A DNA stretch of 64,000 nt from a bacterium (GTDB lineage Bacteria > Oederibacteriota > CAKKQC01). Position 1 is the first letter of the stretch. Each line of letters begins with the position of its first letter. Shown piece after piece: positions 1 to 23,707 of the stretch. A model generated the notes under the pieces. It ran no database searches and was not told the DNA's origin. It saw nothing but the letters and a program-made list of their open reading frames with translations. The stretch is from positions 1-64,000 of the forward strand of contig CAKKQC010000027.1 in NCBI GenBank assembly GCA_919901855.1. Direction: 5' to 3'. A program made the position numbers and the translations under genes.

Positions 1-3000
1 GGCCCACGCACGCGGCGCCGGGCCCGGTCGCCACCGACCCCGCCAGCGCCGCCGGAGTCTGGACCGTCGCCGTAACCACAGAGGCCGCCAGCAGGTTCGT
101 CGACCCGCACGTCGTACCCGTCCCCGTGGCCGTAAACACGGCCAGCCCCGCCCCCGCCGTCGAGTACGTCCACACGAACGTCTGCGAGGTTCCCGCCGTC
201 AGGGTCACCGGCCCCGCCGGAATCGGACCCGTCTCGAGCCCGACGAGGGCGGCGCCCGGCCCGACCGCGAGGTCGGGCAGCATGCCCGTCACGTCCGCCC
301 CACCCGCGTTGGTCACTGTCAGCGCCACGGTCACCCACTGGCCGGCCGACACGACCGGCGGCGAGACGGTCGTGCACGCCACCAGCGCCCCCGCCGCCGT
401 CACCGCGATCGCGCTCGACGGAACCGCCCCCGTCGTCACCACGCCCAGGCTGTTCGCATCCGTCCCCGTCACCGTCGTCGTCAGAATCACGGTCCCCGCC
501 GACGATCCCGAGTACGTCCACGTGAACGTCACCGACGAGTTCCCCGCCACCGTCGCCGGCATCGCGGGCTCGGGCCCCGCCGTCTCCGTCGCGTTCCCGC
601 CCCCGCTCACCCCGAACGGATTGCCCGGCCACTGGACGTTCACCCCCGTCGCGTCCGCCTCGCCCGTGTTGGTCACTGTCAGCGTCACCTGGTAGCTCTG
701 GCCCGTGCAGATCGCGGACGCGTACTGGGCGGCCTGCGCGGTCAACTGCGCAGGCACCTGGACCTGGACCGTGACCGACCCGGCGGCCTCCACCGCCACC
801 AGCACCCCGCCGCAGAGCGTAGTTCCCGCCACCGTCACCGTGAACGTGACCGGCCCCGCCCCGGTAGCCGTATAGCTGAAGACGAACGTCGTTGCCCCGG
901 CCACCGTCAGCGACGCGAGATCGACCGGCACCGGCCCCTGCGCCACGCTCACGAGCCCGCCGCCCGGGCCCGCGTAGATCGTGGCCGAGAGCCCGGTCAC
1001 CGCTGTACCGCCCGTGTTCGTCACCGTGAGCGCGACCGTGAACCACTGGCCGGCTGAGACCGCGGCCGGCGCCGCGATCGCGGACGCAAACGCCCCCGCC
1101 GTCGAGATCGTCGCCGCGCGGTTCAACGCGCCCGTCGTCTCGACCACCCCCGAGTTCGCGTCCATGGCCGTGACCGTAGTCGACAGCGTGAGCACCCCCG
1201 CCGTCAATCCCGTGTAGGTCCACGTGAACACGGCCGTGGCCCCACCCAGAAGCGTCGCAGGAAGGGCCGGGTACGGGCCCGCCGACAGGCTCGCCGTCCC
1301 GCCCCCGGTCATGACGAGCGGCGGCGCCACGACGTCCAGCCCCGTGGCTGTCGCCTGTCCCGAGTTCGTCACCGTCAGCGTGACGACGAAATCCTGGCCC
1401 ACGCACGGCCCCGTCGGGTAGATCCCGATCGTGGCGGAGAGCGCCACCGCCGTCTCCACCGTGGCGGAGACGCTGGCCTTCGCGATCAGCGCCGTCGCCC
1501 CCGAGCACGTCATCCCGACTCCCGAGGCCGTGAACGTAACCACCCCCGCGCCCGTTGCGGTCACCCCGAACATGAAGAGCGCCGAGCCCCCCGGGATCAG
1601 CGTGAATGGTCCCGCCGGGATCGGACTCGACGGGTTGCTCACGAACCCGCCACCCGGGTTCACGTACGCAGTCGCCGTGACTCCCGTGACGATCGCGGCG
1701 CCCATCCCACCCGTGTTTGACACCGTCAATGTCAACGGGAACCATTCCCCGACCGAGACGTGGCCCGGCACGGTTGCCACCACATCGAGCACCCCCGGAT
1801 TATCCACGCTCATCCCCTTCGGCCCCGTGGCACCCCGCAGACCCGAAGTCAGGACCGATAGAGAGTTGGCGTCCACTGCCGTGACGGTCGTGGTGAGGAT
1901 CACCTGCCCCGCGACAGTCCCTGTGTAGGTCCACGTGAATGTCGCCGAGGCCCCACCTACGAGCGACGCCGGCAGCACCGGAGTCGGCCCCACTCCGGTC
2001 GCCGCCCCCCCAAGGCCGCTCAACTCCCACAATGCGTTCACTCCGCTGGCCGTCGCCCCTCCCGTGTTCGTCACAGTCACCGTCACCAGGAAGTTCTGTC
2101 CCGTGCAGACGGAGGCAACATACGCCTTCGCATAGGCCACGAGCGCCGCCGGGGTCTGCACCGTCGCCGTCACCACCGAGGCCGCCAGCAGGTTCGTCGA
2201 CCCGCAGGTCGTCCCCGTGCCCGTGGCGGTGAAGACCGCAAGCCCTGCGCCCGTAGCCGAGTACGACCACACGAACGTCTGCGACGCGCCCGCCGCCAGC
2301 GTCACCGGCCCCGAAGGAGTCGGGCCGGTCTCCAGGCCAACGAGTCCGCTACCCGGCCCCACCGCGAGGTCGGGCAGCACGGCGTCCACATCCGCGCTCC
2401 CCGAGTTCGTCACCGTCAACGCCACCGTGATCCATTGGCCAATTGACACCTGCCCCGGCGTCACCGTCGTCCGCGCTGACAGCGCGCCCGCCGCCGTCAC
2501 CGCGATCGCCGGAGACGGCACCAGCCCCGTCGTCACGCCCGCGAGGCTGTTCGCGTCCGTCCCCGTCACCGTCGTCGTCAGGATCACGCTCCCCACCGCC
2601 GCGCCCAGGTACGTGAACGTGAACGTCTGCGACGCCCCGCCCGCGAGCGTCACCGGCATCGCCGGCACCGGCCCCGCCGTCTTCGTCGCGTTCCCGCCCC
2701 CGCTCACCCCGAACGGATTCCCCGGCCACTGGACGTCAACCCCCGTCGCGTCCGCCTCGCCCGTGTTCGTCACCGTCAGCGTCACCTGGTAGCTCTGGCC
2801 CGTGCAGATCGCGGAAGCATACTGGGCCACCGCCGCCGTGAGCTGCGCGGGCTTCTGGATCGTGACGACCACGGACCGTACAGCCTGCACGGGCGTCGGA
2901 ACGCCCCCGCACAGCGTCGTCCCCGCCACCGTCACCGTGAACGTCACCGGCCCCGCCCCCGTCGCCGTGTAGCTGAAGTAGAACGTCGTCGCCGTCCCCG

Positions 3001-5600
3001 CCGCCAGCGACGCGAGATCCACCGGCACCGGCCCCTCCGCCCCGCTCACCAGCCCGCCGCCCGGGCCCGCGTATACGGTCGCCGTCAGCGCCGTCACCGC
3101 CGTCCCGCCCGTGTTCGTAACCGTCAGCGCGACCGTGAACCACTGGCCCTCCGAAACCGCGACCGGCGCCGCACCGGCCACCGCGAACGCTCCCGGCGTC
3201 GAGATCGTCGCCGCGCGGTTCAACGCGCCCGTCGTCTTCACGACCCCCGAGTTCGCGTCCGTGGCCGTGACCGTGCTCGACAGCGTCAGCACTCCCGCCG
3301 TCAATCCCGTGAAGGTCCACGTGAACACGGCCGTGGCTCCGCCCAGAAGCGTCGCAGGAAGGGCCGGGTACGGGCCCGCCGACAGGCTCGCCGTCCCGCC
3401 CCCGGTCATCACGAGCGGCGGCGCCACGAGGTCCATGCCCCAGGCCGTGGCCTGGCCCGCATTCGTCACCGTCAGCGTCACGACGAAGTCCTGGCCCACG
3501 CAGGGGGCCGCCGGGTAGATCCCGACCGTGGCGGAGAGCGCGATCGCCGACTGCACCGTCGCCGAAACGCTCGCCTTCGCGACGAGCGCCGTGGTCCCGC
3601 CGCACGTCATCCCGACTCCCGAGGCCGTGAACGTGACCACCCCCGCCCCGGTCGCCGTCACCCCGAACATGAAGGTCTGCGACGTCCCGGCCGTGAGCGT
3701 GATCGGTCCCGCCGGAATCGCGTTCCACGGCTTGCTCACGAACCCGCTGCCCGGGTTCACGTACGCGGTCGCCGTGAGCCCCGTGATGTCCGTGCCCCCC
3801 GTGTTCGTCACCGTCAGCTCAACCGGGAACCACTGCCCGACCGAGACGTACGGCGGCACGCTCGAAACAGCCGCCAGCACGCCCGGATCCGTCACCGTCA
3901 CCGGCCCCGCCGCCAGCGGTCCCACCGTAACCGGGAATGTCGAGTTCGCGTCAACGGCCGAGAGCGTCGTCGTGAACGTCACCGGACCCGCCGCCGACCC
4001 CGTATATGTCCACGTGAAGGTCCACGTGGCACCACCCGCCAGCGCGACGGGCAGAACGGGATTGGGTCCCACGCCGGTCGCTGCCCCGCCGCCGTCCAGC
4101 GTCCATGCCGCCGCCGTCAGAGCCGTCGCATCGGCCTGGCCCGTATTGGTCACCGTGAGGGTCACCAGGAACGTCTTTCCCGTGCACGCCGTCGCCGCCA
4201 GCAACTTCACCGTCGCATCGAGCGCCGCCGGAGTCTGGACCGTCGCCGTCACCGTCGAGGCCGCCAGCAAGTTCGTGCTCCCGCAGGTCGTCCCCGTGCC
4301 CGTGCCCGTGAATACCGCGAGTCCGGCCCCGTTCGCCGAGTACGTCCAGACGAACGTCTGGGAGGTCCCCGAGAGGATCGTGACCGGGCCCGCCGGCACC
4401 GGCCCAGACTCGGCCACGACCAGCGCCGCCCCCGGCCCGACGGCGACGTCCGGCAGGACCCCGTTCACGTCGGCCCCGCCGGTGTTCGTGACCGTCAGGG
4501 CGACCGTGATCCACTGCCCGATGGACACTCGCCCCGGCGAGACCGTGGTCCTCGCGACGAGCGCCCCGGCCGCCGCCACCGCGATCGCGTTCGACGGCAC
4601 CGCCCCCGTCGTCACCACCGCAGACGAGTTCGCGTCCGTACCCGTCACCGTCGTCGTCAAGATCACGTTGCCCGCCGCCGACCCCGAGTACGTCCACGTG
4701 AACGTCTGCGACGCCCCGCCCGCCAGCGACACGTTCATCGCCGGCATCGGCCCGTCCGCCTTCGTCGCGTTCCCGCCCCCGCCGACGCCGAACGGATTCG
4801 CCGGCCACTGGACGTTAACCCCGTTTGCATCGGCCTCGCCCGTGTTGGTCACCGTCAGCGTCACCAGGTACGGCTGGCCCGTGCACACGGCCGACGCGTA
4901 CTGGACCACCTGCGCCGCGAGCTGCGCGGGCTTCTGGATGAGCACGTTCACGATCCCGGCGCCTGTGGCGGGCATGGGCACCCCGCCGCAGAGCGTCGAT
5001 CCAACCGCCGTCACCGTGAACGTCACGTTGCCGAGCCCGGTCGCCGTGCAACTGAAGGCGAAGGTCGTGGTTCCCCCGACCCCGAGCAACGCGAGCGCGA
5101 CGGGCACCGGCACCCCGGGCCCGCCGACCAGCCCGCCGCCGGGCCCCGCGAACGCAGTCGCCGTCAGCGCCGTGACCGCCGACCCGCCCGTGTTCGTGAC
5201 CGTCACCCGAATCCCGAACCACTGTCCGAGCGATACCTTGGCCGGCCCCCAGGCCGTGGCCGTCAACTGGCCCGCCGTCGTGATCGTCGCCGCCCGCTTG
5301 ATCACCCCCGTCGTCTTCAGCACGCCCGAGTTCGCGTCGGTCGCGGTCACGGTCGTCGAGAGCGTCAGCACGCCCGCCGTCAGCCCCGTGTAGGTCCAGG
5401 TGAACACGGCCGACGCCCCGCCCGCGAGGTCCACGGGCAGGCCCGGCATCGGGCCGTCCTTGAGGGTGGCGGTGCCTGCCCCCGTCATCACGATCGGCGC
5501 GTTCACGAGGTCCACGCCGGTCGCCGCCGCCCCGCCGGTGTTGGTGACCGTCAGCGTCACGACGAAGTCCTGGCCGACGCAGGGCGCCACCGGATAGATC
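1..5600 (-). repeat. higher-order repeat: six-module unit of ~2.1 kb, about 2.7 copies in the window
   Basis: The module order QDF, QWF, Q(S/P)Y, QW(I/V), Q/K-(N/T)F, (Q/E)WFP repeats three times. Anchor sequences recur at 1201, 3298 and 5377, giving in-frame periods of 2097 and 2079 bases (699 and 693 codons). The first two copies share a 68-base identical block (1245-1312 and 3342-3409), which points to recent tandem duplication. The third copy is more diverged. Further copies may lie beyond the left edge. Confidence 0.85.
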
Positions 5601-8600
5601 CCGATCGTGGCGGAGAGCGCCACCGCCGTCTGCACGGTGGCGGAAACCCACGCCCCCAGCTTCAGCGGCGTTGCCCCGTTGCACGTCATCCCCACTCCCG
5701 ACGCCGTGAACGTGACCACGCCCGCCCCCGTTGCCGTCACCCCGAACGAGAAGGTCTGCCAGTCCCCGGGCACGAGCAGGGGCACCACCACGGGCACCGG
5801 CGGCGACGGCTTGCTAACGAACGCGCTTCCCGGGTTCACGTACACGGTCGCCCCCAGGTTGGTGATGTCGGTTCCGCCCGTGTTCGTGACCGTCAGGAAC
5901 ACCTCGAACCACTGCCCGGCCGACACGTACGGCTGGACCGTCGTGACCACTCCGAACGCCCCCGGCGACCCGACCGTAAGGGCCGGGCTCGAGACGGGCC
6001 CCGCGTACGTGGTCGCCCCCGTGTTGGCCCCGATCCCGGACACCGAGGACGTGAACGTAACGTCGCCGTTGGTTATCCCGGTGTAGGTCCAGGTGAAGGT
6101 CTGCGACAGCCCGCCACCCAGCGTGAACGGCATCGGCGGCAGGGGCCCCGACCCCGCCGACACCCCGCCGGCGCCGGTGATCACCCATCCGGACATCACC
6201 ATCGCGGTCGCGGTCGCGCCGCCCGTGTTCGTAACCGTCAACCGGACCTGGAACGTGCCGGTGGGGCTGCACACGGACAGGGGAACCAGGCTCACGGCGG
6301 CGTCCAACGCGGCGGGGGCCTGGATCAGGACCGTGTTCGACAGCCGCCACCCGAGCGATATCGGGAGGCCGGACGCCACATCGAGCGCGGTCACAGTCGT
6401 CGTGAACCTGACCAGCCCGGGCGACGCCCCCGTGTAGGTCCACGAGAACACGGCCGACGCCCCGGACGCGAGATCCATCGGCAGGACCGGGTCCGGCCCG
6501 GAGGAATAGGCCGCCCCGCCCGGCCCCGTGATCCAGAACGGCTCGATGTTCAACCCCTGCGCCGTCGCGCCGCCCGAGTTCCGGACCCGCAGCGTCACGA
6601 AGAACTCCTGCCCCACGTCCCGGTTCGGCAAGGGCGAGACCATGACCGTCGCCGACAGCACCGCCGGGGTCGAGACCACGGTCGACACCACGGCCTTCAC
6701 GCGCTGAACCGCGCCGCAGGTGGTGCCGGCCACGGACATCGTGAACGTGACCGCGCCCGCCCCCGTCGCCGTGTACGTGAAGATGAACGTCGTCGCGCCG
6801 TTGGCCGCCAACGACGCGAGGTTGATCGGCACCGGCCCGAGCGGACGGCTCACGAACGCGCCGCCCGGCGTGGCGTAGACCGTGGCCGTGAGCGCCGTGA
6901 TGGGCATCCCGCCCGTGTTCGTGACCGTCAGCCGCACCGTGAACGGGGATCCCACCAGCACGCCGGGCGACACCGATCCGGAGACCGAGAACGCGCCGGG
7001 ATCGCCGATCAGGAGCGCGTTCGAGACGTACGGCCCGGCGGACACGGGCTCCCCGGTGCTGCCGTCGGTCGCGTCGGCCGACGCCTGCATCGTCACCGAC
7101 CCGGCCGTGCTCGCCGTGTAGGTCCAAGTGAACGTGATGCGCGCCAACGGATTCAGCGGGCCGTAGGGCTGGGCGGGCCGGGGGCCGGCCACGTAGGTGA
7201 CGCCGCCCGGCCCCACCGTCGACAACGGCGGGGTCACGAGGCCCGTGGCCGCCACGGAGCCGTTGTTCGTAATCGTCAGCGTCACGAGGAAGTTCTGGCC
7301 CGTACAGATCGTGTTCGCGAGGACCTTGAGCGACCCGTCCAGCTTCACGTTGGACGGCGCGCTCGTGTCCCACGTCGACAGGACGAGCCCCCCGCAAGTG
7401 ACGGCGTCGACGCTGCCCGTCCAGATGATGTCCGGGGCCGTCCAGGGAGCGCCGCCCCACACGTAGTATGTCCAGGTGAACATCGCCGATGTGCCCGGCA
7501 TCACCCCGCTCGCCGTTCCGCCGGGCATCGGTCCATTCGCGAAGTCGTGGTAGATGCCGATCCCGTCATCGGTGCTGACCATGTTGACGTTGGTGATGTC
7601 CAGAGGCGCCCCGCCGCTGTTCGTGACCGTGAGCACGACCTCGATGGTTTCGTCGCCCGGCGACGACGTGGGCGCGGACACGACCGCCCGCAGCGCCCCG
7701 GGCCCGGCGATGGTGACCGGATTCGAGATCCGCGTCGCGCTCAGCGCCGCCCCCGAGTTGCCGTCGTTCCCGGTCACCGTGACGGTGAAGTCCAGAACCC
7801 CCGCCCCCGTCGCCGAGAACGTCCACGTGAAGAAGGCGCGGTTGCCTCCGCCCGGGAGCGTCGTCCCGACCGGGTTCATCCACGCGAACGCCGCCTTTCC
7901 CGTGCCCGCGACGAAACATGTCCCGCTGAGGTTGAGGACGGGCGCACCCCCGGAGTTCGTGACCGTCATCGCCACCTGGATGCGGTCCCCGATGCAGACG
8001 GTCGTCGCCCCGTCCGGCCGCTTGGCCGTGACCGGGCTCCCGCGCATGTCGGAACCTACTTGCACGAGCACGCTGTCGGGGCCTCCGTTCACGTACAGCA
8101 GCCCCGTGTCGAGGTAGGCCGAGTTGTTGAAGTCGGTGGCCGTGACCTGCGTGATCATGGTGACCAGCCCCGGCGAGACGCCCGTGAACGTGTACGTGAA
8201 CACGACTCCGGTATGACCCGGCAGGAAGTACGGATACCCCGGTGTCGGATCGAGGAGCGTGGTCACGCTCCCGGCACCCGAGACCGTGATCGGCGTCGCC
8301 GTCAGGCTGAACACGGGCGCGACGGTAAACGGACCCGCGGTACCGCCGCCCGTGTTCGACACGGTCAGGGTCACGAGGAACGGCTGGCCCACGTTCACGA
8401 CCGCTGGGCACTCGAACAGGGCCTCCAGCACCGCCGCCTTGTCGATATAGAAGGTCCCGGTCATTACGGGTCCCGTGGTGAGGACCGCCCCCGACGTGCC
8501 GTCCCTGGCGGTCACCGTCTCCGTGAAGACGATCCATCCCGGTGAGCTGGCGGAGTACGTCCACGTGAACGTGATAGACATCCCGCCCGGAATAGTCCGG

Positions 8601-9500
8601 GTCAGCGTAGGCGAGAGGGAGGGGGTCGGTCCGGCGGAGTAGTTGACCACCCCCGTCCCGGTCACGTCCGGCCGGTACGGCGACGGGATCGTCACGTTGA
8701 GCGCGGTCGCGTCACCCGTGTTGGTTACGGTCAGCGTCAGCCAGACGCCCTGGCCCTCGTTCCGGGACACCGGGATCGTCGTGAACGAAGCCGCGAGCGC
8801 GGCCGGACGCTGAATGACGTACGGCCCGGACGTGGCTGTGTCCGAGATCGCCTTCCCGGAGTAGCTGTCGGTCCCGTTCACGGTCGCCGTAAACCACACC
8901 GTCCCCGGCGCCGACCCCGTATAGGTCCAGGTGAAGGTCTGCGACTGCCCGATGCCGAGCGACGCCCACGGCAGGGCCGGGGTCGGCCCCGGGCCTTTCG
9001 TGGCGGACCCCGTTCCGGACACCCAGAACGGCATCGTCACGAGGTTGAGCAGCGTGTCTCCCGTCGCGGCGGCCCCGCCCGTGTTCGTGATCGTGACGGT
9101 CACGAGGAAGGTCTGCCCGACGTTGCGCGGGCTCAGGTACCCCGTCACGTAAGCGTCCAGGATCGCGGGTCCCGAGATCGTCGAGTAGACGGTAGCCGTG
9201 CCCAGCGCGGGCAGCCCGCCGCACGTGGAACCCGCGCCGCTCGCGGTGAACTGCACGACTCCGCCTCCGGAGGCGGAGTACGTCCACCGGAAGGTCTGAG
9301 CCGCCCCGGGATTGAGGTCCACGGGGCCCGGCGGGATGGGACCGAGTTCCTGGAACACCCGGTAGTCCCCGATCGGCCGGGCGATCGCGGGCATGACGCC
9401 CAGGACCGCGGTCGAGCCCGTGTTGGTCAACGTCAGCGCCACCGTGAACCAGGTGCCGATTACCGGGGCCGGCGGCGAGGTCACGCGCGCGGCCAGCTTC
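1..9500 (-). repeat. tandem array of ~27 CARDB/DUF11-like modules (~350 bp each)
   Basis: About every 350 bases the minus-strand frame returns to a motif of the form GQxFxVTLTVTNTGG, followed by a variable loop, a GPxP segment and an FTWTYTG strand. That is the pattern of CARDB or DUF11-type beta-sandwiches in very large surface proteins. Two module types alternate. One begins C-x-GQ-F/Y and ends near TDANSG. The other begins GQW and ends near TTCGG or TTLCGG. Modules start near 9470, 9120, 8760, 8400, 8010 and so on, down to about 350. Confidence 0.85.
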
Positions 9501-12500
9501 CCGCCGGCATTCGGCGGGCCCGCGAGCCGGAGATTGTCGACGTAGATCCGCCCTCCCGCCTTCGTGTTGGCGATGTCGAGATGGAGGATCAGGGTCGACA
9601 GGGCATCGGTCGACAGAACCGCGCCGCCGGCGGTCGTGAACGTGAGATCCAGCGACACGTTGTTCATGCCGGAGGCCAACAGGACCGTGGACGTGATCTG
9701 GCCCGTGAAGAAGTTGTTGGCGTACAGGCTCAGGTACGCCCCACCCGTCGTCCAGGGAAGGTTCCCCGGGTCGACGTACACATCCGCCGTGAACTTCGTG
9801 TACGGGGTCCACACGCTCGGCGTGAATCCGGTCAGGTTCGCCCACTTATCCTGCGTGTTCTGCGTGCTGGTGATACTGGCTAGCAGGCATCCCGTGCCCT
9901 GCGTGATCGCCGCCGCCGTCGTCCCGTTGACCGTCCGGGTCGCCCAGGCCCCGCTCCACGTCCCGTGGCCGTCTAGCGTCTCGGCGCCGCTGAGCAGCAG
10001 CGGACAGCCCGGGATCGTGTAGACCTCGGCGTTCGGGGACACGATCGGGTCCGAGGTCAGGGGTCCCGTGTCGGTGCCCGTGATCGTGACCGTGAGGTTG
10101 ACAACGCCGAGCTCGACCCCGGTCAGGGTCCACGTCAGCGAGAACAACGCGCCCGGGGCCAGCGAGGCGGGGACACCCGTCGCCGGGCCGTCCACGGGTA
10201 CCAGCCAGCCGCCGGTGCCAGTCTCCCAGAACGGCACGAGGTCGATCCCCGTCACGGTCATGACCCCCGTGTTCGACACCGAGAGCGTGGCGACCACCGT
10301 GCCCTCCTCCGAGAGAGCCGTGGACGAGAGCGTCCACCACCCCAGGAGCCACCCGCCCGCCACCTCGGTCACGGTGACGTCGTTGCTGGTGACCGTCGGC
10401 TGAGGAGAGAACGCGGGATTCTGGAAGTCCGCCTGCGCCGTGTTGGGCCCGACCGTGGACGCCATTCCGGAGACGGACACTGTCATCGTCACAGCCGTAA
10501 TTCCGCCCGGAACGACTTTCGCGATGTTCCAGACAGCCTTGGTCCCATCAAAGACCCCGCCCGGCGCGTTCACGAAGGCAACCCCGCCGGGCACCGTGTC
10601 CCAGACCTGGATATTGTAGGCAGTGTTGGCGCTCGTATTGGATACCGTGATCGTATATACGAGGTTGTCGCCGCGGTACACGGGATCCTTGTCCGCCGTC
10701 TTCACGAGCGCGATCTGAGTGTCCGGCGACATGAACGCGGCCGCCAGCCCGGCCACCTCGCCCTGGTAGGCGACGTCGTTCTCCGTGATCTCCCACGGCA
10801 CGGCCACGGCTCCGGACGCGTCCGGCCCCGTGCAACAGAACGCCCAGTCGCGGTACCAGTAGTGCCGGCCCGTGCCGCCGAGCCCGCCCAGCGGCGGAAC
10901 CACACTGCCGCCGTAATAGACGTTCGCGCCCCCGGGAATGATCCCGGGGAACGGCCCGTAGGTGGACGTGTTGTTGTCGTTAATCCCTATGCTGTCCGTA
11001 CCCGCGTAGTACGGGTATCCGATCTCGGCGACGGCGGCGGGTTTGCCGAGGAAGCTCGCCTTCCCGTCGGCGTCGCCCCAGTTGCCGAACCATCCGTGGT
11101 AGAGCTGCCACGAACTGTGCTCCCCGCCGATCGCGGCCATGTTCGAGGCGTAGACCATGTTCGGCCCGTTGAGACCGTAGAAGTAGTGCAGGATCGCCTG
11201 GGCCCGGTCGCGCGCCTCCTGGACCGTGTGCGTCCCCGTCGCCCCGATCCGGGCCGCGTGCAGCAGGTGGAGTCCACGCCGCCCCTTGTAGGCGTTACTC
11301 CCCCAGTTGAACTCCTCGTCGAGGTCGCACCCGGACATGTACCCGCCGCCCTTGGTGAACGCGTCGTTGACGAGGTTCGAGAAGTTCGCCCGCATCCCGT
11401 TGACGACCGAGCCGGTGGCCCCGGGGGCGAGCGTGTAGGCGGTCATGGCGCGCATGCCCGCCGTGTTCAGGCTCACGTTGTACTGCACCCACACGGAATT
11501 CATGCCCCCGGGGCTAGTCCAAGTGCAGTAGGTGTCCACATACGACTTCGCCGCCACCGCATTCGGACCGGCGTTGTCGAGCCGGTACAACTCGGCCGCG
11601 AACCAGAGCTTGCACTCGTTGCCGGTCAGGGCGGACTCCGCCGCCCACGCGCTGTTCGCGCATGCCGTCAGCGTCGCGGCGTATGCCGCGTCGTAGGGGG
11701 CCCACAATCGGGCCCCGATGCAGAAGCACGCGCCCGCGATCGAGGTCGAGTCGTTCGTGGGGTTGAGGTAGTACCGCGGGGTCCCCGTATCGCCGCTCGG
11801 CGGCGATCCCCCGCTGTAGTCGCCGAGCCTCTTCTTCACGATGGAAAGGACTTTCCCGCCCAGCCCGGGGGCCTGCATCTTGCGGTAGAAATCGAGCTGG
11901 AACCTGATCTCGTCGAGGCAGTCCGGCACGTTGTTCCCGGACTCCGGGATCGCGGTGGCGTCGCTGTTGTACGCCGTCGAGTTCAGCTCGAACCCCATCG
12001 CGATCCCCCAGACCGCGGCTCCCCCGTCGCCGCCCCAGCTTCCGCCGCCCTTGAGTCCCGCCGAGCCCAGGTACTTGTTGTAGTCGCCGGCGTCGTGCCA
12101 CCCGCCCGAGAGGTCGAGCGTGCCGTGGTTCGTCGCGTCCAGGTCGTCCCACTGGTTGTGGGCGCAGGCCGTGTCCGCCGTGTGGCAGGCGCCACCGGGA
12201 TCGGCCCAGACCCCCATGTGGGCCGGGCCGTGTGGAACGCCGCACCGCTGGGCGAAGAACGCCTTCAGGATCGCGTAGCCCGCCCGGTTGTAGACGCTCT
12301 CCTTGATATCGAAGTCGTAGCTCTTCCCCGCAAGAGCGGGCACCTTGAGGTAGTAGGTCCCCTCGGTCTTGAAGTTCGAGAAGTCGACCTGCCAGACGTT
12401 CTCGTTCGCGTCCGGGTCCAGCCCCTTGCTCGTGATGCTCCCGCCGTCGGCCGGGATCCGGTAGACGAGCGACCCGTCGGAGGCCCGGTGGACCTCCGCC

Positions 12501-15500
12501 GTCGCGCCCGGGTTGGCGTTCACGACCCCGATCTTCTGGTCGTTGAGCCGGTAGCCGAAGTGGTCGACCTTGATCGACGGCGCGAACGTGACGGGATCGA
12601 GGATCTGCTCGCCGTTCGACACGATCGGGGTCGTCGAGATCCCGCCCGCCGAGACGCTGTCCAAGGCGTAGACCGTGGCCGTGAAGTATTCGATCCCGGG
12701 GAGCGTCCCAGTGTACGTCCAGGTGAACGTGATCGACGCACCCGCGGCGAGCGTGACCGGCATGGCCGGCCAGGGACCCGCCACGTAGCTCACGCCGCCG
12801 GTACCCGACACCACGAACGGCGACGCGGTGACCCCCGTGGCCTGCGCGGTGCCCGTGTTCGTGACCGTGAGCGTGATCCTGAAGTTCGAACCCGTGTTCA
12901 CGTTCGGGAACGCGACCAGCCGGGCGTCGAGCACGGCATGGTCGACCTGGATCTCGTACCAGAGCGCGGCGTTCGCCTCCGAGATCGCGAACTGGGCTTT
13001 GCCGCCCGAGTTGTTGACCGTGACCGCCGCACCGCGCGCACCGGTGTTGGACAGCGCCCACACCCGCACGTTCGCCGGCGGGAACGGAAGCGTCATGCTC
13101 GCGGGCACGCCTTCGACCAGCGCGGGCGAGGAGCCCCAGTCGTTCCGGCTCGTTAACTGGGTGCCCTCCGGCGGCGGCCAGGCGATGGGCGTGCTCGGAT
13201 AGGTGTAGAAGCCCTGGCCCGTGTTGCGCTGGGCTCCCAGCGCGGTAAGCACGATCTCGCGCGCCTGCGACAGCGCCACCATCCCGTCCATGGCGGTCAA
13301 GGCGACGACGTTGTACCCGCCCTGGAGCCCCATGCCGGGCTGGAACTGGAAGCCCGAGAGCGTGATCGTCTTGCCCCCGCCGTACCCGACGATCCACTTC
13401 GACCGCGGGCTGTCCACGGTGACGAACCCCTTCCCCGCCGTCGAGGTGTCCCACACGAGCTGGCCGGTATCCGACCGGAGGACGTTGCCCGACACGTTCA
13501 CCGAACCGGGCGCCAGCGCGCCGCCGGGCACTACCGGGGTCTTGCCCGTCGCCAGTGCGATCCGGGTCACCAGCGCGACCTTGTCGTCGATCCCGACACT
13601 CCCGGAGCCCGGAATCCACCCGCCGCTGTCGGCGGCGCCGTTTATCTCGGCGTCCTGGCTCATGGACGCGACCATGACGCTGGTGCCGGGCGCGATGTCG
13701 CCCCGCAGGAACGCCGCGGCGGCGGGCACGAACGAGGCCATCTTGACCGGGTTCTGCTGGATGTCGAAGTATCCGTCGATCCTCTGCGAATTCCAGTTCG
13801 AGTTGGTCCCCGCGTAGGAGAACGGGAACAGGCCGTCGAAATCCTGGAGGGATCCGTACGCCGAGATCAATGGGAAGCACTCGGCCTCGAACGTGAGCGG
13901 CGCCGGGTGGTTGTACTCGGTCATGGTCACGGGCTTGCCGTATGTGCGCCAGCCCGCGTTCCCCGGTCCCGCGCCGGCGGGGTTGTTCACCATCGCTTTG
14001 TTGTATTGGTACCAGTCGGTCGCACTCCACGGGATGCCCGGGAAGGTCGGGTGGTTCCAGTACGCGTGGGTGTCCACGAAGTCCATGTCGGCCATGAGGT
14101 TCGCGGTCCCGAACCAGCCGGCGGTGCTCGTGACCAGTCCCTTGTACCCCAGCGTGGTCTTGATGTACGCGTACATGTCCAGCCAGTACGCGCGCTCGGT
14201 GTCCCACAGGAAGCGCTCGAAGTCCCGGCGGGCCGTGACCGTGCGGTCCGTGACCGTTTCCGGCGAGGTCGTGCAGTGCGACGAGCACGGAATGTAAAGC
14301 ATGGAGTTCGTGTCGAGGTTCTCGCCCGCGACCAGCCCGAAGGTGCCGCCGGACTTGAACGAGACCTGGGCGAGGTAGACGTTCCCCGCCTGCGCGCCCA
14401 TGTCGAACGAGATCCGGGCGTTCGCGTCCGTCGCCGTCGCCACGAACGAGAACGTGAAGAGCTGGTACGAGGTCGTCAAGGGGACGGTCTGATAGAGGCC
14501 GAGCGTGCCCCACGGCGAATGGTTCATCGCGATCGAGACAATCACGTCTCTAGCCACGCTCGCCTTGGCGTAGAAGCTCACCGTGTACGGCTGGCCGGCG
14601 GTCACCCCGAACCCGGCCTGCGTGAGCTGGATCTCCCAGGAGTTGGAGCCCGGGTTGGTTATGGTGTTGAGTTCCTGGTTGCTCCCCGCCGGCCCGCCCC
14701 CGATGATCACGCTCGGGACGGCGGCCGCGGCGCCCTGCACACCGAGACTCCACGGCGGCAGGGCCCCGGTCCCGAAGTCCCAGTTCGTCAGGATCTCGGC
14801 GCCCAGCGCCTGGTTGAACGCAAACCCGGCCGCCAGCATCGCCGCGTGGGTTCCGTACTTGGCCTTGAGCCAGAGGTTCCATTGAGACCTGAGCTCGCCG
14901 AGGTACGACGGCGGCAGGCTGTCGAGCATGCAGAGCGTGTATCCCGACACGAGCCCGTTCTCGTTGTTGATCTCGACCATGCCGACCGCCGGCTCGTCCA
15001 CGTACCGGTTCCCGGTGTACGCGTTAGTGTGGGTGAGGAGGTCGCGGGTGAAGTCCTTCTGAAGCGCGAGCGCCTTGGCATCGAACATGGGGATGAGGCC
15101 CCGGGTCTTCCACCCTACCTGCATGATGTCGGCGTTGAGATCCGTCCCGGGAAAGAACGGCCGGGAGACGACGGTGTTGATGTTGACGTAGACCCCGCTC
15201 GCCTTGAGCTGGGAGACGAAATAATCGAACTTGAGGAGCTGGCCCGCGTCGATCGTCCGGTCCGGCTGGGCCTCGCTCGCCGTCGTCCACCATCCGTTCC
15301 CCCACGTGCCGACGGCCTCCGCGTCCGCGTGGTGGATGCGCACCATGTTGACCCCGTACTTGGCGAGTCGTCCGGCCACCGCCTGGGCGTCCGCCTGCGT
15401 CGCCGGGAAGTTCGACCCGTACGTCGTGTTGGTGCCCCAGAACCGGATCCGGCCGTTGGTCGTGGCGAAATGGCCCTGGGGGTCGGCAAAGACGAACCCG

Positions 15501-15649
15501 TACTTGCCCGCGGGCTTGTCCAGATAGACCGAGAGGTCCGTGAGCGTGGGGGTGGAATCGTTCCAGGGGAGCGTGAACGGGATGACGGCGCGGGCGTCCG
15601 GAGCCAGCAGGCACAACAGGAAAAGAGGAATGCGCCGGGCCCAGGTCAT
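1..15649 (-). CDS. giant secreted multidomain glycoside hydrolase (barrel + CBM + GH9 + CARDB-like repeats), 3' end outside window
   Basis: An ATG at 15649 opens a frame with no stop down to base 2, so at least 5216 residues are encoded and the C-terminus is outside the window. Residues 1-20 form a signal peptide (MTWARRIPLFLLCLLAPDARA). Residues ~25-640 look like a GH-A clan TIM barrel: the candidate acid/base is E230 in VEINNENGL and the nucleophile E578 in MTEYNHP. A CBM4/9-like sandwich is inserted at ~285-438. Residues ~905-1015 are CARDB-like, ~1020-1105 a CelD_N-type Ig domain, and ~1110-1640 a GH9 catalytic domain with D1186/D1189 in GGWHDAGDYNKY and acid E1631 in TENDVAYQGEV. A DUF11-like domain (~1645-1745), one sandwich and a CBM-like jelly roll (~1880-2040) follow, then about 27 CARDB-like modules to the window edge. 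It probably degrades beta-glucan polysaccharide outside the cell. GH9 is confident; the first barrel's family is not. Confidence 0.85.
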   Translation of the reverse strand, partial: MTWARRIPLFLLCLLAPDARAVIPFTLPWNDSTPTLTDLSVYLDKPAGKYGFVFADPQGHFATTNGRIRFWGTNTTYGSNFPATQADAQAVAGRLAKYGVNMVRIHHADAEAVGTWGNGWWTTASEAQPDRTIDAGQLLKFDYFVSQLKASGVYVNINTVVSRPFFPGTDLNADIMQVGWKTRGLIPMFDAKALALQKDFTRDLLTHTNAYTGNRYVDEPAVGMVEINNENGLVSGYTLCMLDSLPPSYLGELRSQWNLWLKAKYGTHAAMLAAGFAFNQALGAEILTNWDFGTGALPPWSLGVQGAAAAVPSVIIGGGPAGSNQELNTITNPGSNSWEIQLTQAGFGVTAGQPYTVSFYAKASVARDVIVSIAMNHSPWGTLGLYQTVPLTTSYQLFTFSFVATATDANARISFDMGAQAGNVYLAQVSFKSGGTFGLVAGENLDTNSMLYIPCSSHCTTSPETVTDRTVTARRDFERFLWDTERAYWLDMYAYIKTTLGYKGLVTSTAGWFGTANLMADMDFVDTHAYWNHPTFPGIPWSATDWYQYNKAMVNNPAGAGPGNAGWRTYGKPVTMTEYNHPAPLTFEAECFPLISAYGSLQDFDGLFPFSYAGTNSNWNSQRIDGYFDIQQNPVKMASFVPAAAAFLRGDIAPGTSVMVASMSQDAEINGAADSGGWIPGSGSVGIDDKVALVTRIALATGKTPVVPGGALAPGSVNVSGNVLRSDTGQLVWDTSTAGKGFVTVDSPRSKWIVGYGGGKTITLSGFQFQPGMGLQGGYNVVALTAMDGMVALSQAREIVLTALGAQRNTGQGFYTYPSTPIAWPPPEGTQLTSRNDWGSSPALVEGVPASMTLPFPPANVRVWALSNTGARGAAVTVNNSGGKAQFAISEANAALWYEIQVDHAVLDARLVAFPNVNTGSNFRITLTVTNTGTAQATGVTASPFVVSGTGGVSYVAGPWPAMPVTLAAGASITFTWTYTGTLPGIEYFTATVYALDSVSAGGISTTPIVSNGEQILDPVTFAPSIKVDHFGYRLNDQKIGVVNANPGATAEVHRASDGSLVYRIPADGGSITSKGLDPDANENVWQVDFSNFKTEGTYYLKVPALAGKSYDFDIKESVYNRAGYAILKAFFAQRCGVPHGPAHMGVWADPGGACHTADTACAHNQWDDLDATNHGTLDLSGGWHDAGDYNKYLGSAGLKGGGSWGGDGGAAVWGIAMGFELNSTAYNSDATAIPESGNNVPDCLDEIRFQLDFYRKMQAPGLGGKVLSIVKKRLGDYSGGSPPSGDTGTPRYYLNPTNDSTSIAGACFCIGARLWAPYDAAYAATLTACANSAWAAESALTGNECKLWFAAELYRLDNAGPNAVAAKSYVDTYCTWTSPGGMNSVWVQYNVSLNTAGMRAMTAYTLAPGATGSVVNGMRANFSNLVNDAFTKGGGYMSGCDLDEEFNWGSNAYKGRRGLHLLHAARIGATGTHTVQEARDRAQAILHYFYGLNGPNMVYASNMAAIGGEHSSWQLYHGWFGNWGDADGKASFLGKPAAVAEIGYPYYAGTDSIGINDNNTSTYGPFPGIIPGGANVYYGGSVVPPLGGLGGTGRHYWYRDWAFCCTGPDASGAVAVPWEITENDVAYQGEVAGLAAAFMSPDTQIALVKTADKDPVYRGDNLVYTITVSNTSANTAYNIQVWDTVPGGVAFVNAPGGVFDGTKAVWNIAKVVPGGITAVTMTVSVSGMASTVGPNTAQADFQNPAFSPQPTVTSNDVTVTEVAGGWLLGWWTLSSTALSEEGTVVATLSVSNTGVMTVTGIDLVPFWETGTGGWLVPVDGPATGVPASLAPGALFSLTWTLTGVELGVVNLTVTITGTDTGPLTSDPIVSPNAEVYTIPGCPLLLSGAETLDGHGTWSGAWATRTVNGTTAAAITQGTGCLLASITSTQNTQDKWANLTGFTPSVWTPYTKFTADVYVDPGNLPWTTGGAYLSLYANNFFTGQITSTVLLASGMNNVSLDLTFTTAGGAVLSTDALSTLILHLDIANTKAGGRIYVDNLRLAGPPNAGGKLAARVTSPPAPVIGTWFTVALTLTNTGSTAVLGVMPAIARPIGDYRVFQELGPIPPGPVDLNPGAAQTFRWTYSASGGGVVQFTASGAGSTCGGLPALGTATVYSTISGPAILDAYVTGYLSPRNVGQTFLVTVTITNTGGAAATGDTLLNLVTMPFWVSGTGSATKGPGPTPALPWASLGIGQSQTFTWTYTGSAPGTVWFTATVNGTDSYSGKAISDTATSGPYVIQRPAALAASFTTIPVSRNEGQGVWLTLTVTNTGDATALNVTIPSPYRPDVTGTGVVNYSAGPTPSLSPTLTRTIPGGMSITFTWTYSASSPGWIVFTETVTARDGTSGAVLTTGPVMTGTFYIDKAAVLEALFECPAVVNVGQPFLVTLTVSNTGGGTAGPFTVAPVFSLTATPITVSGAGSVTTLLDPTPGYPYFLPGHTGVVFTYTFTGVSPGLVTMITQVTATDFNNSAYLDTGLLYVNGGPDSVLVQVGSDMRGSPVTAKRPDGATTVCIGDRIQVAMTVTNSGGAPVLNLSGTCFVAGTGKAAFAWMNPVGTTLPGGGNRAFFTWTFSATGAGVLDFTVTVTGNDGNSGAALSATRISNPVTIAGPGALRAVVSAPTSSPGDETIEVVLTVTNSGGAPLDITNVNMVSTDDGIGIYHDFANGPMPGGTASGVMPGTSAMFTWTYYVWGGAPWTAPDIIWTGSVDAVTCGGLVLSTWDTSAPSNVKLDGSLKVLANTICTGQNFLVTLTITNNGSVAATGLVTPPLSTVGPGGVTYVAGPRPAQPYGPLNPLARITFTWTYTASTAGSVTMQASADATDGSTGEPVSAGPYVSNALLIGDPGAFSVSGSVSPGVLVGSPFTVRLTVTNTGGMPITALTATVYATPGGAFVSRPLGPVPINLASLAANGATTFIFTYTATGAGAVTFTMSVAGTTCGAVQRVKAVVSTVVSTPAVLSATVMVSPLPNRDVGQEFFVTLRVRNSGGATAQGLNIEPFWITGPGGAAYSSGPDPVLPMDLASGASAVFSWTYTGASPGLVRFTTTVTALDVASGLPISLGWRLSNTVLIQAPAALDAAVSLVPLSVCSPTGTFQVRLTVTNTGGATATAMVMSGWVITGAGGVSAGSGPLPPMPFTLGGGLSQTFTWTYTGITNGDVTFTSSVSGIGANTGATTYAGPVSSPALTVGSPGAFGVVTTVQPYVSAGQWFEVFLTVTNTGGTDITNLGATVYVNPGSAFVSKPSPPVPVVVPLLVPGDWQTFSFGVTATGAGVVTFTASGVGMTCNGATPLKLGAWVSATVQTAVALSATIGIYPVAPCVGQDFVVTLTVTNTGGAAATGVDLVNAPIVMTGAGTATLKDGPMPGLPVDLAGGASAVFTWTYTGLTAGVLTLSTTVTATDANSGVLKTTGVIKRAATITTAGQLTATAWGPAKVSLGQWFGIRVTVTNTGGSAVTALTATAFAGPGGGLVGGPGVPVPVALALLGVGGTTTFAFSCTATGLGNVTFTVTAVGSTLCGGVPMPATGAGIVNVLIQKPAQLAAQVVQYASAVCTGQPYLVTLTVTNTGEADANGVNVQWPANPFGVGGGGNATKADGPMPAMNVSLAGGASQTFTWTYSGSAAGNVILTTTVTGTDANSSAVVTTGAVPSNAIAVAAAGALVARTTVSPGRVSIGQWITVALTVTNTGGADVNGVLPDVAVGPGAALVVAESGPVPAGPVTILSGTSQTFVWTYSANGAGLAVFTGTGTGTTCGSTNLLAASTVTATVQTPAALDATVKLLAATACTGKTFLVTLTVTNTGQADATALTAAAWTLDGGGAATGVGPNPVLPVALAGGATWTFTWTYTGSAAGPVTFTTTLSAVDANSTFPVTVGPLAAGPVTVTDPGVLAAVSSVPPYVSVGQWFPVELTVTNTGGTDITGLTATAYVNPGSGFVSKPWNAIPAGPITLTAGTSQTFMFGVTATGAGVVTFTASGVGMTCGGTTALVAKASVSATVQSAIALSATVGIYPAAPCVGQDFVVTLTVTNAGQATAWGMDLVAPPLVMTGGGTASLSAGPYPALPATLLGGATAVFTWTFTGLTAGVLTLSSTVTATDANSGVVKTTGALNRAATISTPGAFAVAGAAPVAVSEGQWFTVALTVTNTGGTAVTALTATVYAGPGGGLVSGAEGPVPVDLASLAAGTATTFYFSYTATGAGPVTFTVTVAGTTLCGGVPTPVQAVRSVVVTIQKPAQLTAAVAQYASAICTGQSYQVTLTVTNTGEADATGVDVQWPGNPFGVSGGGNATKTAGPVPAMPVTLAGGASQTFTFTYLGAAVGSVILTTTVTGTDANSLAGVTTGLVPSPAIAVTAAGALSARTTVTPGQVSIGQWITVALTVTNSGSADVDAVLPDLAVGPGSGLVGLETGPTPSGPVTLAAGASQTFVWSYSATGAGLAVFTATGTGTTCGSTNLLAASVVTATVQTPAALVAYAKAYVASVCTGQNFLVTVTVTNTGGATASGVNALWELSGLGGAATGVGPTPVLPASLVGGASATFTWTYTGTVAGQVILTTTVTAVDANSLSVLTSGLRGATGPKGMSVDNPGVLDVVATVPGHVSVGEWFPLTLTVSNTGGMGAAIVTGVTATAYVNPGGGFVSNPSSPIPAGPFTLIPGGSALFMFGVTATGAGVVTFTASGVGMTCSGATALIAKASVSATVETAVALSATIGIYPTGPCVGQDFVVTLTVTNSGQATATGLDVVAPPLVMTGGGTASLSAGPYPALPATLLGGATAVFTWTYTGLTAGVLTLSTTVTAMDANSGVVETTGALNRAATISTAGAFASAIAAPAAVSAGQWFTVALTVTNTGGTAVTGLSATIYAGPGGGLVSVAQGPVPVDLASLTVAGATTFVFSYTATGAGPVTFTVTVAGTTLCGGVLVAVEAAGSVTVQVQVPAQLTAQAAQYASAICTGQSYQVTLTVTNTGEADATGVNVQWPGNPFGVSGGGNATETAGPEPAMPATVAGNSSVTFTWTYSGSSAGTVILTTTVTGTDANSLGVVTTGAVPSSAIAVTAAGALVACTTVSPPVVSAGQWVTVALTVTNAGGADVTGMLPDLAVGPGAALVGLETGPIPAGPVTLTAGTSQTFVWTYSTAGAGLAVFTATGTGTTCGSTNLLAASVVTATVQTPAALAGSVATGPGAACVG

Positions 15650-15813: not shown

Positions 15814-17367
15814 TCAGCGCGCGAGCTGGTCCACGTACGCCTTGAGCGGGGGATTGTCCGGGTGGAGCCGGAGGGATTCGCGGTAGGAGACGAGAGCCGC
15901 GGACTTGTCCCCCTTGGCCAATTGGCAGTTGCCGACGAGCTGCCAGGCCTCCCAGTTGGTCCGGTCCGCGGTCAGGACCGCCGACCCCTTCCGCCACGCG
16001 CCGTCGATGTCGCCGGCCACGTACAGGGCGGTCGCGGACGCGACCGCAGACGAAGCCGAGGACGGCTTCGTCGCGGCGGTCGCCGCGGGCGGGGTCGCGG
16101 GCACGATCCTCGTAAGGAACGTCCTGAGTTCGGGGTTGTCGGGGTGGAGCTCGAGCGACTTCTTGAACGCGGCGACCGCCCCCTGCGTGTCCCCCTGCGC
16201 GTGGAGGGCGTTGCCCTTCATCTGCCAGGCTTCCCAGTAGAACGGGTTGAGCTTGATCGCGTCGGTGGCCTTGGAGACCGCGGTCGCCTGGTCGCCCGCC
16301 GCGAAGGCGGCGGAGGCGTCCCGGAGCGCCTGCGTCGCGTCGCGCTCGAGCTCGGCCGAGATCATGGTCTCGCCCGTGCGCTTGGGCCCGAGCGTGCTGA
16401 GCGCGATGACGTGCGCCTCCTCGAACTCGGCCTCCTGCCGCTCGACGGCGGAGGGGCCGAGCCCGTAGAGGAAGGCGAACCGGTGGCTGACCGCGAGGTC
16501 GCCGAACGGCTGGTAGGCGTAGTCGAGGCCGAACCGGCCGGCCCGCACCCCGGCGCCGACCCCAAAGCCCGTGAGCCCGCCGAGGGACTGGTCCTTGCCG
16601 CGGTGGCCGTAGCCCATCCGGAGGGCGATCGCCTTCACGGGCAGGAGCTCCGCGCCGAGCGAGACGCGCGGCGACTTGTCCGTCAGTCCGTACCCGCCCT
16701 CCGCCGCCACCCGGAGGCGCGGGGACATGAGCCAGGCGAGCCCGGCCCGCACGGACCCGGGCAGCGAGAATCCGGCCGACTTCGTCCCCAGGTGCAGGAC
16801 CGCCCACCCGGCGCGCAGGCCCGGGGCGACGGGCACAAGTCCGCCCGCCGAGACGCCGTAGAGCGCCCCGCCCCCCACGGCCTCGTCCACGCGCTCGATC
16901 GCGACGCCCGTGTAGCCCCCGAGGAACGGGGGGTTGGCGGCCGCGATCGAGAACGAGACCGCGAGATCCCGCGCTTCCCGCGTGCCCGTGATGACGCCGT
17001 CGGCGTCACGGAGCTCGTAGGAGCCGTAGGAGAACGAGGTCAGCGAGAGACCCAAAGTCTGCCGCGCCACCGGGATCGCGACGGCGCCGTAGACGAGCGA
17101 GAGGCCGTTCCCCGCGTTGTCGTACTGCACTTGTCCCTCCGCGTTCCGGCAGAAGCCGAGCCCCCCGGGATTCCACGAGATGGCGGAGGCGTCGTCGGCC
17201 ACGGCCGTGAACGCCTCCCCCATCCCGACCGGCCGCGCGGCCATGCCGCGGGCGAGGAAGGCCGCGCGCCGGAACCCGAACTCGGACGACACCAGGGGCA
17301 GGTTCTCGGCGCGCGCCTGCGCCGCGAGAGCCAGGCACGCGAGGAGGAGAAGTCCCGGTCCCCTCAT
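15814..17367 (-). CDS. PorV/PorQ-like (UPF0164) outer-membrane beta-barrel protein with C-terminal TPR repeats
   Basis: The ATG at 17367 overlaps the stop of the upstream gene (ATGA), and the protein starts with a signal peptide (MRGPGLLLLACLALAAQARA). Residues ~20-320 carry the PorV/UPF0164 signature: an N-terminal segment ARPVGMGEAFTAVADDASAI, then WNPGGLG, then alternating amphipathic beta-strands (e.g. LRVAAEGGYGLTDKSPRVSLGA). Residues ~360-517 contain TPR units ending in the same phrase, SLxLHPDNP, twice. Family members in Bacteroidota carry or bind secreted proteins at the outer membrane. The open frame extends 49 codons upstream, but the signal peptide and the overlap fix this start. 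Translational coupling to a huge secreted protein suggests a partner role in export or surface attachment, which is an inference. Confidence 0.8.
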   Translation of the reverse strand: MRGPGLLLLACLALAAQARAENLPLVSSEFGFRRAAFLARGMAARPVGMGEAFTAVADDASAISWNPGGLGFCRNAEGQVQYDNAGNGLSLVYGAVAIPVARQTLGLSLTSFSYGSYELRDADGVITGTREARDLAVSFSIAAANPPFLGGYTGVAIERVDEAVGGGALYGVSAGGLVPVAPGLRAGWAVLHLGTKSAGFSLPGSVRAGLAWLMSPRLRVAAEGGYGLTDKSPRVSLGAELLPVKAIALRMGYGHRGKDQSLGGLTGFGVGAGVRAGRFGLDYAYQPFGDLAVSHRFAFLYGLGPSAVERQEAEFEEAHVIALSTLGPKRTGETMISAELERDATQALRDASAAFAAGDQATAVSKATDAIKLNPFYWEAWQMKGNALHAQGDTQGAVAAFKKSLELHPDNPELRTFLTRIVPATPPAATAATKPSSASSAVASATALYVAGDIDGAWRKGSAVLTADRTNWEAWQLVGNCQLAKGDKSAALVSYRESLRLHPDNPPLKAYVDQLAR

Positions 17368-23657: not shown

Positions 23658-23674
23658 TGTAAGGGAATCGTCAC

Positions 23675-23707
23675 GGCGGGTGCAGTGGTCCGACGAGCGC
23701 ACCCGCC
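23675..23707. terminator. inverted repeat between lipB and the kelch protein gene
   Basis: A 9-bp perfect inverted repeat (GGCGGGTGC/GCACCCGCC, 15-base loop) sits 35 bases after the lipB stop codon. It separates two minus-strand units and lacks a clear T-tract. It covers the GTG at 23702, which argues against that GTG as a start. Confidence 0.4.

Follow-up and report, generated by a model that had tools for sequence, protein, structure and literature searches.

A giant gene coding for two glycosidase heads and a CARDB-like stalk in the phylum of Goldbacteria

Introduction

The closest described enzymes to the protein reported here are the GH9 cellulases with a CelD_N domain, such as Clostridium CelD, CbhA/CelK, and the GH9 enzymes of Goldbacteria (PMC7031533), with which it shares CelD_N, the GH9 domain, and the catalytic residues, as well as, in the case of CbhA/CelK, a CBM4. 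These cellulases have few accessory domains, whereas the giant protein has another catalytic head and some 50 Ig modules besides. Goldbacteria include a member that was captured while attached to cellulose; activity has been shown for three of its GH9 enzymes (PMC7031533). The second head has its nearest counterpart in the GH5_7 beta-mannanases, which agree with it in barrel fold and in a pair of conserved Glu residues.

With respect to length and export, the best precedents are the giants of the type IX secretion system (T9SS), typified by SprB of Flavobacterium, which likewise combine a Sec signal, a very long chain, and a C-terminal sorting domain; there, as in the genome studied here, many cargo genes have a shuttle gene immediately downstream. 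Flavobacterium often places a dedicated PorP/SprF shuttle gene after a cargo gene with a type B tail, and a single PorV serves every type A tail (PMC12618676). The dedicated shuttles of Flavobacterium are PorP/SprF-like and accompany type B C-terminal domains (CTDs) (PMC12618676), whereas the present genome, from a phylum outside Bacteroidota, has PorV-family genes and a PorZ-like CTD. A recent review-type statement places T9SS genes as absent outside the FCB phyla (PMC11285876). Finally, giant ORFs of Omnitrophota, Elusimicrobiota, and Planctomycetota (PMC10066038, PMC11573180) also code for surface-type proteins of great length in little-studied bacteria, but most have few annotated domains, in contrast to the two clear glycosidase heads seen here. 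Our literature searches recovered no report combining GH9, CARDB, and a giant protein, and those on CARDB or stalks returned only unrelated papers.

Here we analyze a stretch of 64,000 nucleotides (the window) from a genome of 4.68 Mb in 91 contigs (93% complete), which belongs to the phylum holding Goldbacteria, FCPU426, and Firestonebacteria. The giant protein encoded in it is an extreme version of known multimodular cellulases, not a new kind of system.

Results

A giant gene split between two contigs

The minus strand of the window contains a frame that opens with ATG at position 15649 and continues without a stop for 5216 codons to the contig edge (2..15649). Since the window opens with the first base of its contig (C27), the end of the frame is only the end of the contig. 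By codon position, the GC content of the heads is 58/51/92% and that of the stalk 60/61/92%; among the repeat copies of the stalk, divergence is highest at third codon positions, and synonymous single-base codon differences outnumber nonsynonymous ones (151 versus 66 and 102 versus 37). This signature distinguishes it from both a chance and a functionless GC-rich open frame: it is a real coding gene, cut in two by the assembly.

The missing 3' part was found on contig C10, which begins within a plus-strand frame of 2650 codons plus stop (L019:3-7955) built of the same CARDB-like modules and ending in a domain that carries the motif IVYPNPFRP. The two contig ends have no exact overlap; the first 1.2 kb of C10 and the last 1.2 kb of the C27 frame match at 76%. 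The ends of two further contigs, C33 and C63, also break within CARDB frames, and the choice of partner therefore needed testing. The last 700 residues encoded on C27 are 64% and 72% similar to C10 and at most 40% similar to C63, and we accordingly rejected a C27-C63 join on account of this weak similarity; C63 pairs with C33 at 83%. The right ends of these two contigs (L025 on C33; L028 on C63) seemingly represent, in their matching repeats, a second giant gene split likewise by the assembly. The register of the repeats places a gap of ~287 residues between C27 and C10, or of ~287 plus whole super-repeats of 690, so that the protein has at least 7866 residues (5216 + 2650) and ~8,150 by repeat register, with the gap sequence itself unread. 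It is this register, together with a gene order conserved in a sister genus (see below), that identifies C27 and C10 as the flanks of one gene. The preliminary description of this DNA, which reported a stop-free frame of more than 5216 codons running off the edge and proposed that the C terminus be sought beyond the left edge, is thus borne out, with a YPNPF (YPNP/FlgD-like) domain found on C10.

In a draft assembly, with the break inside a repeat and a genome rich in similar CARDB arrays, the frame or the C27-C10 join might be a chimera of several repeat proteins. We consider this very improbable, as the coding signature extends throughout, the two contig ends are reciprocal best fits, the sister genus has a single gene with the same neighbors, and the 5216 codons in the window are independent of the join.

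A GH5_7-like barrel and a GH9 domain at the N terminus

All domains of the 5' part are encoded on the minus strand. Residues 1-21 (MTWARRIPLFLLCLLAPDARA; 15587..15649) were recognized by eye in the translation as a Sec-type signal peptide. They are followed by a GH-A barrel whose first half (residues 22-284; 14798..15586) and second half (residues 419-660; 13670..14395) are separated by a CBM_4_9 domain (residues 285-418; 14396..14797), inserted after the fourth barrel strand. The inserted domain matches the CBM4/CBM9 model (PF02018) with 39.5 bits (cutoff, 25.9; Pfam E = 9e-10) and the CBM4 of laminarinase 16A (1gui) with a Z score of 20.8. Structure comparison of an AF2 model of the barrel (pLDDT, 89.6; pTM, 0.88), which reaches residue 721 only, recovered GH5_7-type mannanases with a Z score of 30 over 323 residues. 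The model has the features of GH clan A, namely, a TIM barrel in which strand 4 ends with the Glu of an NE motif and strand 7 likewise ends with Glu. These Glu residues correspond to the predicted acid/base E230 (codon 14960-14962; E209 of the model, after strand 201-207) and the predicted nucleophile E578 (codon 13916-13918; E557, in strand 553-559), both of which are invariant across 32 barrel sequences. Searches against Pfam gave scores below the cutoffs for both GH5 (PF00150; 15.6 bits versus 23.5) and GH42 (PF02449; 16 bits versus 21), and we therefore call the barrel GH5_7-like rather than a member of GH5; judged by the model, it is a GH-A fold closest to the GH5_7 mannanases. A beta-rich extension (residues 661-905; 12935..13669) completes this head, and similar sequence was seen by eye after the barrel in translations from relatives too.

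The barrel with its inserted CBM4 constitutes a family of its own, with matches in 23 of 40 relatives, many of them full-length, at up to 49% identity. An alignment-based scan of named genomes found members encoded on at least 535 contigs, among them contigs of Armatimonadota, Planctomycetota, Verrucomicrobiota, Goldiibacteriota, Firestonebacteria, and some archaea. Unlike in the giant, the family occurs in relatives as a stand-alone protein: none of 80 named barrel loci shows a fusion to GH9, and their median open frame is 911 aa. With both heads as a single query, the named genomes yielded no relatives in a scan that may leave out the source genome itself.

A single CARDB-like module (residues 914-1021; 12587..12910) lies between the barrel head and the GH9 enzyme. 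The latter spans residues 1023-1645 and comprises a CelD_N Ig-like domain (12335..12583; Pfam E = 1e-15) and the catalytic domain (residues 1120-1645; 10715..12292), which matches PF00759 with 96.8 bits (cutoff, 27.7; Pfam E = 2e-27; PDB profile E = 2e-64). Its D1186 and D1189, in a DAGD motif, and the C-terminal acid E1623 align with the catalytic residues of solved GH9 enzymes. Downstream are a DUF11 module (10433..10714; Pfam E = 8e-15), a further single CARDB-like module (residues 1776-1876; 10022..10324), and a domain at residues ~1880-2050 (9500..10012) that is conserved in the sister genus at 37% identity. The signal peptide, the GH-A-like barrel with an inserted CBM, and the GH9 domain had all been proposed beforehand and are upheld by these results; the second CBM-like domain proposed there is present at ~1880-2050, but its CBM label, given by eye, is unproven because searches against Pfam and PDB found no match.

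A stalk of CARDB-like modules, a recurrent theme in the genome

From residue 2058 onward, the frame consists of 27 tandem CARDB-like Ig modules (44..9478; PF07705, 151 bits; cutoff, 22.7; Pfam E = 1e-44), in agreement with the count of at least 27 given earlier, to which the single modules at residues 914 and 1776 are to be added. C10 contributes another 22 and one partial module. The modules recur with a period of ~111-117 residues and, near the contig break, are organized in six-module super-repeats of about 690-700 aa. Modules of this region have a single cysteine each, whose place alternates between about position 86 and about position 6, such that cysteines face each other in pairs at 14 module junctions. 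With one cysteine per module, pairing is possible only between modules, and we infer inter-module disulfides that would stiffen the stalk. An AF2 model of four modules is all-beta and Ig-like, but just one of five models is confident (87, versus 39-61 for the other four), and hence we make no claim from it on disulfide geometry or stalk length. An Ig module is ~4 nm long; ~50 modules would thus give the stalk a reach in the order of 200 nm.

Several further CARDB/DUF11 giants are encoded in the genome, their frames measuring 4,709 to 10,753 aa and their heads including subtilase and propeller domains; Kelch, beta-propeller, or fn3 domains are found among them. The 10,753-aa frame (on C40, containing position 182385) has CARDB modules and an FlgD-like tail ending at about C40:188714, and a minus-strand frame of 5112 aa (L023, on C8) has a subtilase head, a DUF11/CARDB-type stalk, and a YPNP-type tail. 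At C6:93790-94400 (L137), two long CARDB frames overlap and GC3 drops at the end of the first; this looks like one giant gene split by a frameshift, either true or arising from assembly. Length is therefore a habit of this genome. Conversely, the best relatives of the GH9 domain among 45 genomes of the phylum lie in frames of 485-2252 aa, the giant frame being confined to the window. The earlier view that a GH9 enzyme with such a stalk is unusual holds across the 45 genomes; what is special is the two-enzyme head and not the length.

The company of these giants raises the question of whether the protein is chiefly an adhesin, its glycosidase domains being carbohydrate-binding tips on a stalk that holds the cell on a polymer or on other cells. 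Long T9SS adhesins provide a precedent, adhesins typically have long Ig stalks, the chain includes a CBM4, and other giants of the genome carry Kelch, beta-propeller, or fn3 domains. The catalytic residues of both heads are nevertheless all retained, and the barrel with its CBM4 is found in ordinary-size proteins of relatives, which leads us to regard a chiefly adhesive role as unlikely, if the most serious competitor of a polysaccharidase function.

Gene neighborhood and the ortholog in a sister genus

The giant gene belongs to a row of genes on the minus strand. Directly upstream, at a spacing of ~165 bp, is a gene for a PorV/PorQ-family protein with C-terminal TPRs (15814..17514; NF033709, 91.7 bits; cutoff, 90), a putative shuttle. 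The row opens with a second giant of 2112 aa (17364..23702), in which Pfam searches identified a Kelch propeller and CARDB/DUF11 modules; it also has a delta-60 repeat. Conservation in the sister genus (genome G001) covers the C-terminal part of this protein as well as the row.

On contig C423 of G001, we found an intact gene of 1737 aa that is 39% identical to residues 1021-2650 of the C27 part and 42% identical to the last 635 residues of C10, the best value among the tails compared. Before it lie a PorV-TPR gene (51% to window 15817-17574) and the end of a CARDB giant. After it come an Fn3-like gene (52%) and HolA (52%), and the C10 tail has these two behind it as well. Like the giant, it combines GH9, DUF11, the domain of unknown family, CARDB modules, and a YPNPF-type tail; unlike the giant, it lacks the barrel/CBM4 head, GH9 coming straight after a signal peptide of its own, and its modules number 6-7. 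As both the N-terminal head and most of the stalk are wanting in G001, the giant form is lineage-specific. Most simply read, the sequences indicate gain of the barrel head in the window lineage, along with stalk growth by six-module duplications; the alternative would be loss of the barrel head in G001. As a source of the two heads, we also considered fusion of neighboring genes and rejected it: genome G037 has GH9 and barrel genes on one contig, but in reversed order.

The C-terminal domain and a candidate export route

The CTD on C10 matches the structure of the CTD of PorZ, a T9SS protein (E = 1.5e-4), and scores below the cutoffs of TIGR04183 for type A T9SS cargo (15.8 bits versus 23) and of CHU_C (21 versus 27). 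The genome encodes a homolog of the Sov/SprA translocon (1954 aa; L135:5248-11109 on C23, minus strand), identified by TIGR04189 (263.6 bits; cutoff, 200) and by SprA structures (E = 8e-19); a match to it is present in 19 of 21 genomes searched. The translocon homolog thus occurs in a phylum that does not belong to the FCB group. Its gene adjoins a Peptidase M17 gene and one whose fn3 product ends in a weakly FlgD_ig-like tail. PorV-family (NF033709) matches number 66 in the genome (best, 167 bits; cutoff, 90), with one at C23:22024-22947 and many immediately following a giant or YPNP-tailed gene, and occur in all 40 relatives searched, several in each (7 to 44 among the matches listed). Searches for the GldM/PorM motor in 21 genomes and for a PorU-type C25 peptidase in the source genome returned nothing, but the controls were equally silent for both, and these misses are therefore no proof of absence. 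The SprA homolog and the 66 PorV-family matches point to a T9SS-like export route, by which the giant is likely to be exported.

For 10 of 18 YPNP-type tails, a PorV-family gene lies on the same strand within 400 bp downstream (chance expectation, ~0.05). By analogy, a cargo-shuttle pairing like that of Flavobacterium seems to exist here, with PorV-family genes. Behind the tail of the window giant itself there is no PorV gene; the closest such gene is the one immediately upstream of the giant gene.

Many type A cargo proteins of the T9SS in Bacteroidota are processed at the CTD. By that precedent, the giant chain could be exported and then cut from the surface as a released enzyme, its stalk being a spacer or trimmed, and the subtilase-headed giant of the genome lends this some credence. 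However, a stalk of ~5,700 aa would be of little use once released, and we identified no cleavage signal, which makes release improbable, more so than adhesion.

Discussion

On balance, we favor, with reasonable though not full confidence, the view that one gene codes for a secreted and probably cell-attached polysaccharidase with two heads on a stalk and T9SS-like export. If expressed, the giant would be exported by Sec via its signal peptide; a T9SS-like outer membrane route, with the Sov/SprA homolog and a PorV-family shuttle, would then recognize the C-terminal YPNPF domain, move the chain to the surface, and hold its C terminus at the cell. Some 50 Ig-like CARDB modules, perhaps partly stapled in pairs by disulfides, would form the stalk, at whose end the GH5_7-like barrel with its built-in CBM4 and the GH9 domain may bind plant-type beta-glycans and cleave them at a distance from the cell. 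The substrates may include mannan or mixed glucan besides cellulose. The preliminary description had pictured two catalytic heads on a long surface stalk; heads and stalk are indeed in the sequence, and attachment to the cell is our reading of the CTD and the translocon and shuttle homologs.

A broader proposal, which we put forward tentatively and hold to be somewhat less probable than its opposite, is that a phylum outside Bacteroidota possesses T9SS-like export with dozens of PorV-family shuttles, each for its own giant, and interchangeable heads on Ig stalks. If true, two-glycosidase, subtilase, Kelch, and propeller heads would be interchanged on stalks of some hundreds of nanometers, furnishing a one-chain alternative to the cellulosome.

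The giant gene and the genome around it speak for a T9SS-like route in a candidate phylum of cellulose degraders, where many giant cargo genes are followed by a PorV-family gene. The giant itself shows how an enzyme of 1,737 residues and a two-headed one of ~8,000 can be orthologs, set apart by gain or loss of a head and by six-module duplications, and it offers a model, open to testing, in which enzymes are kept well away from the cell. In the end, the pairing of PorV-family genes with cargo in a T9SS-like system outside Bacteroidota may outweigh the single gene in interest.
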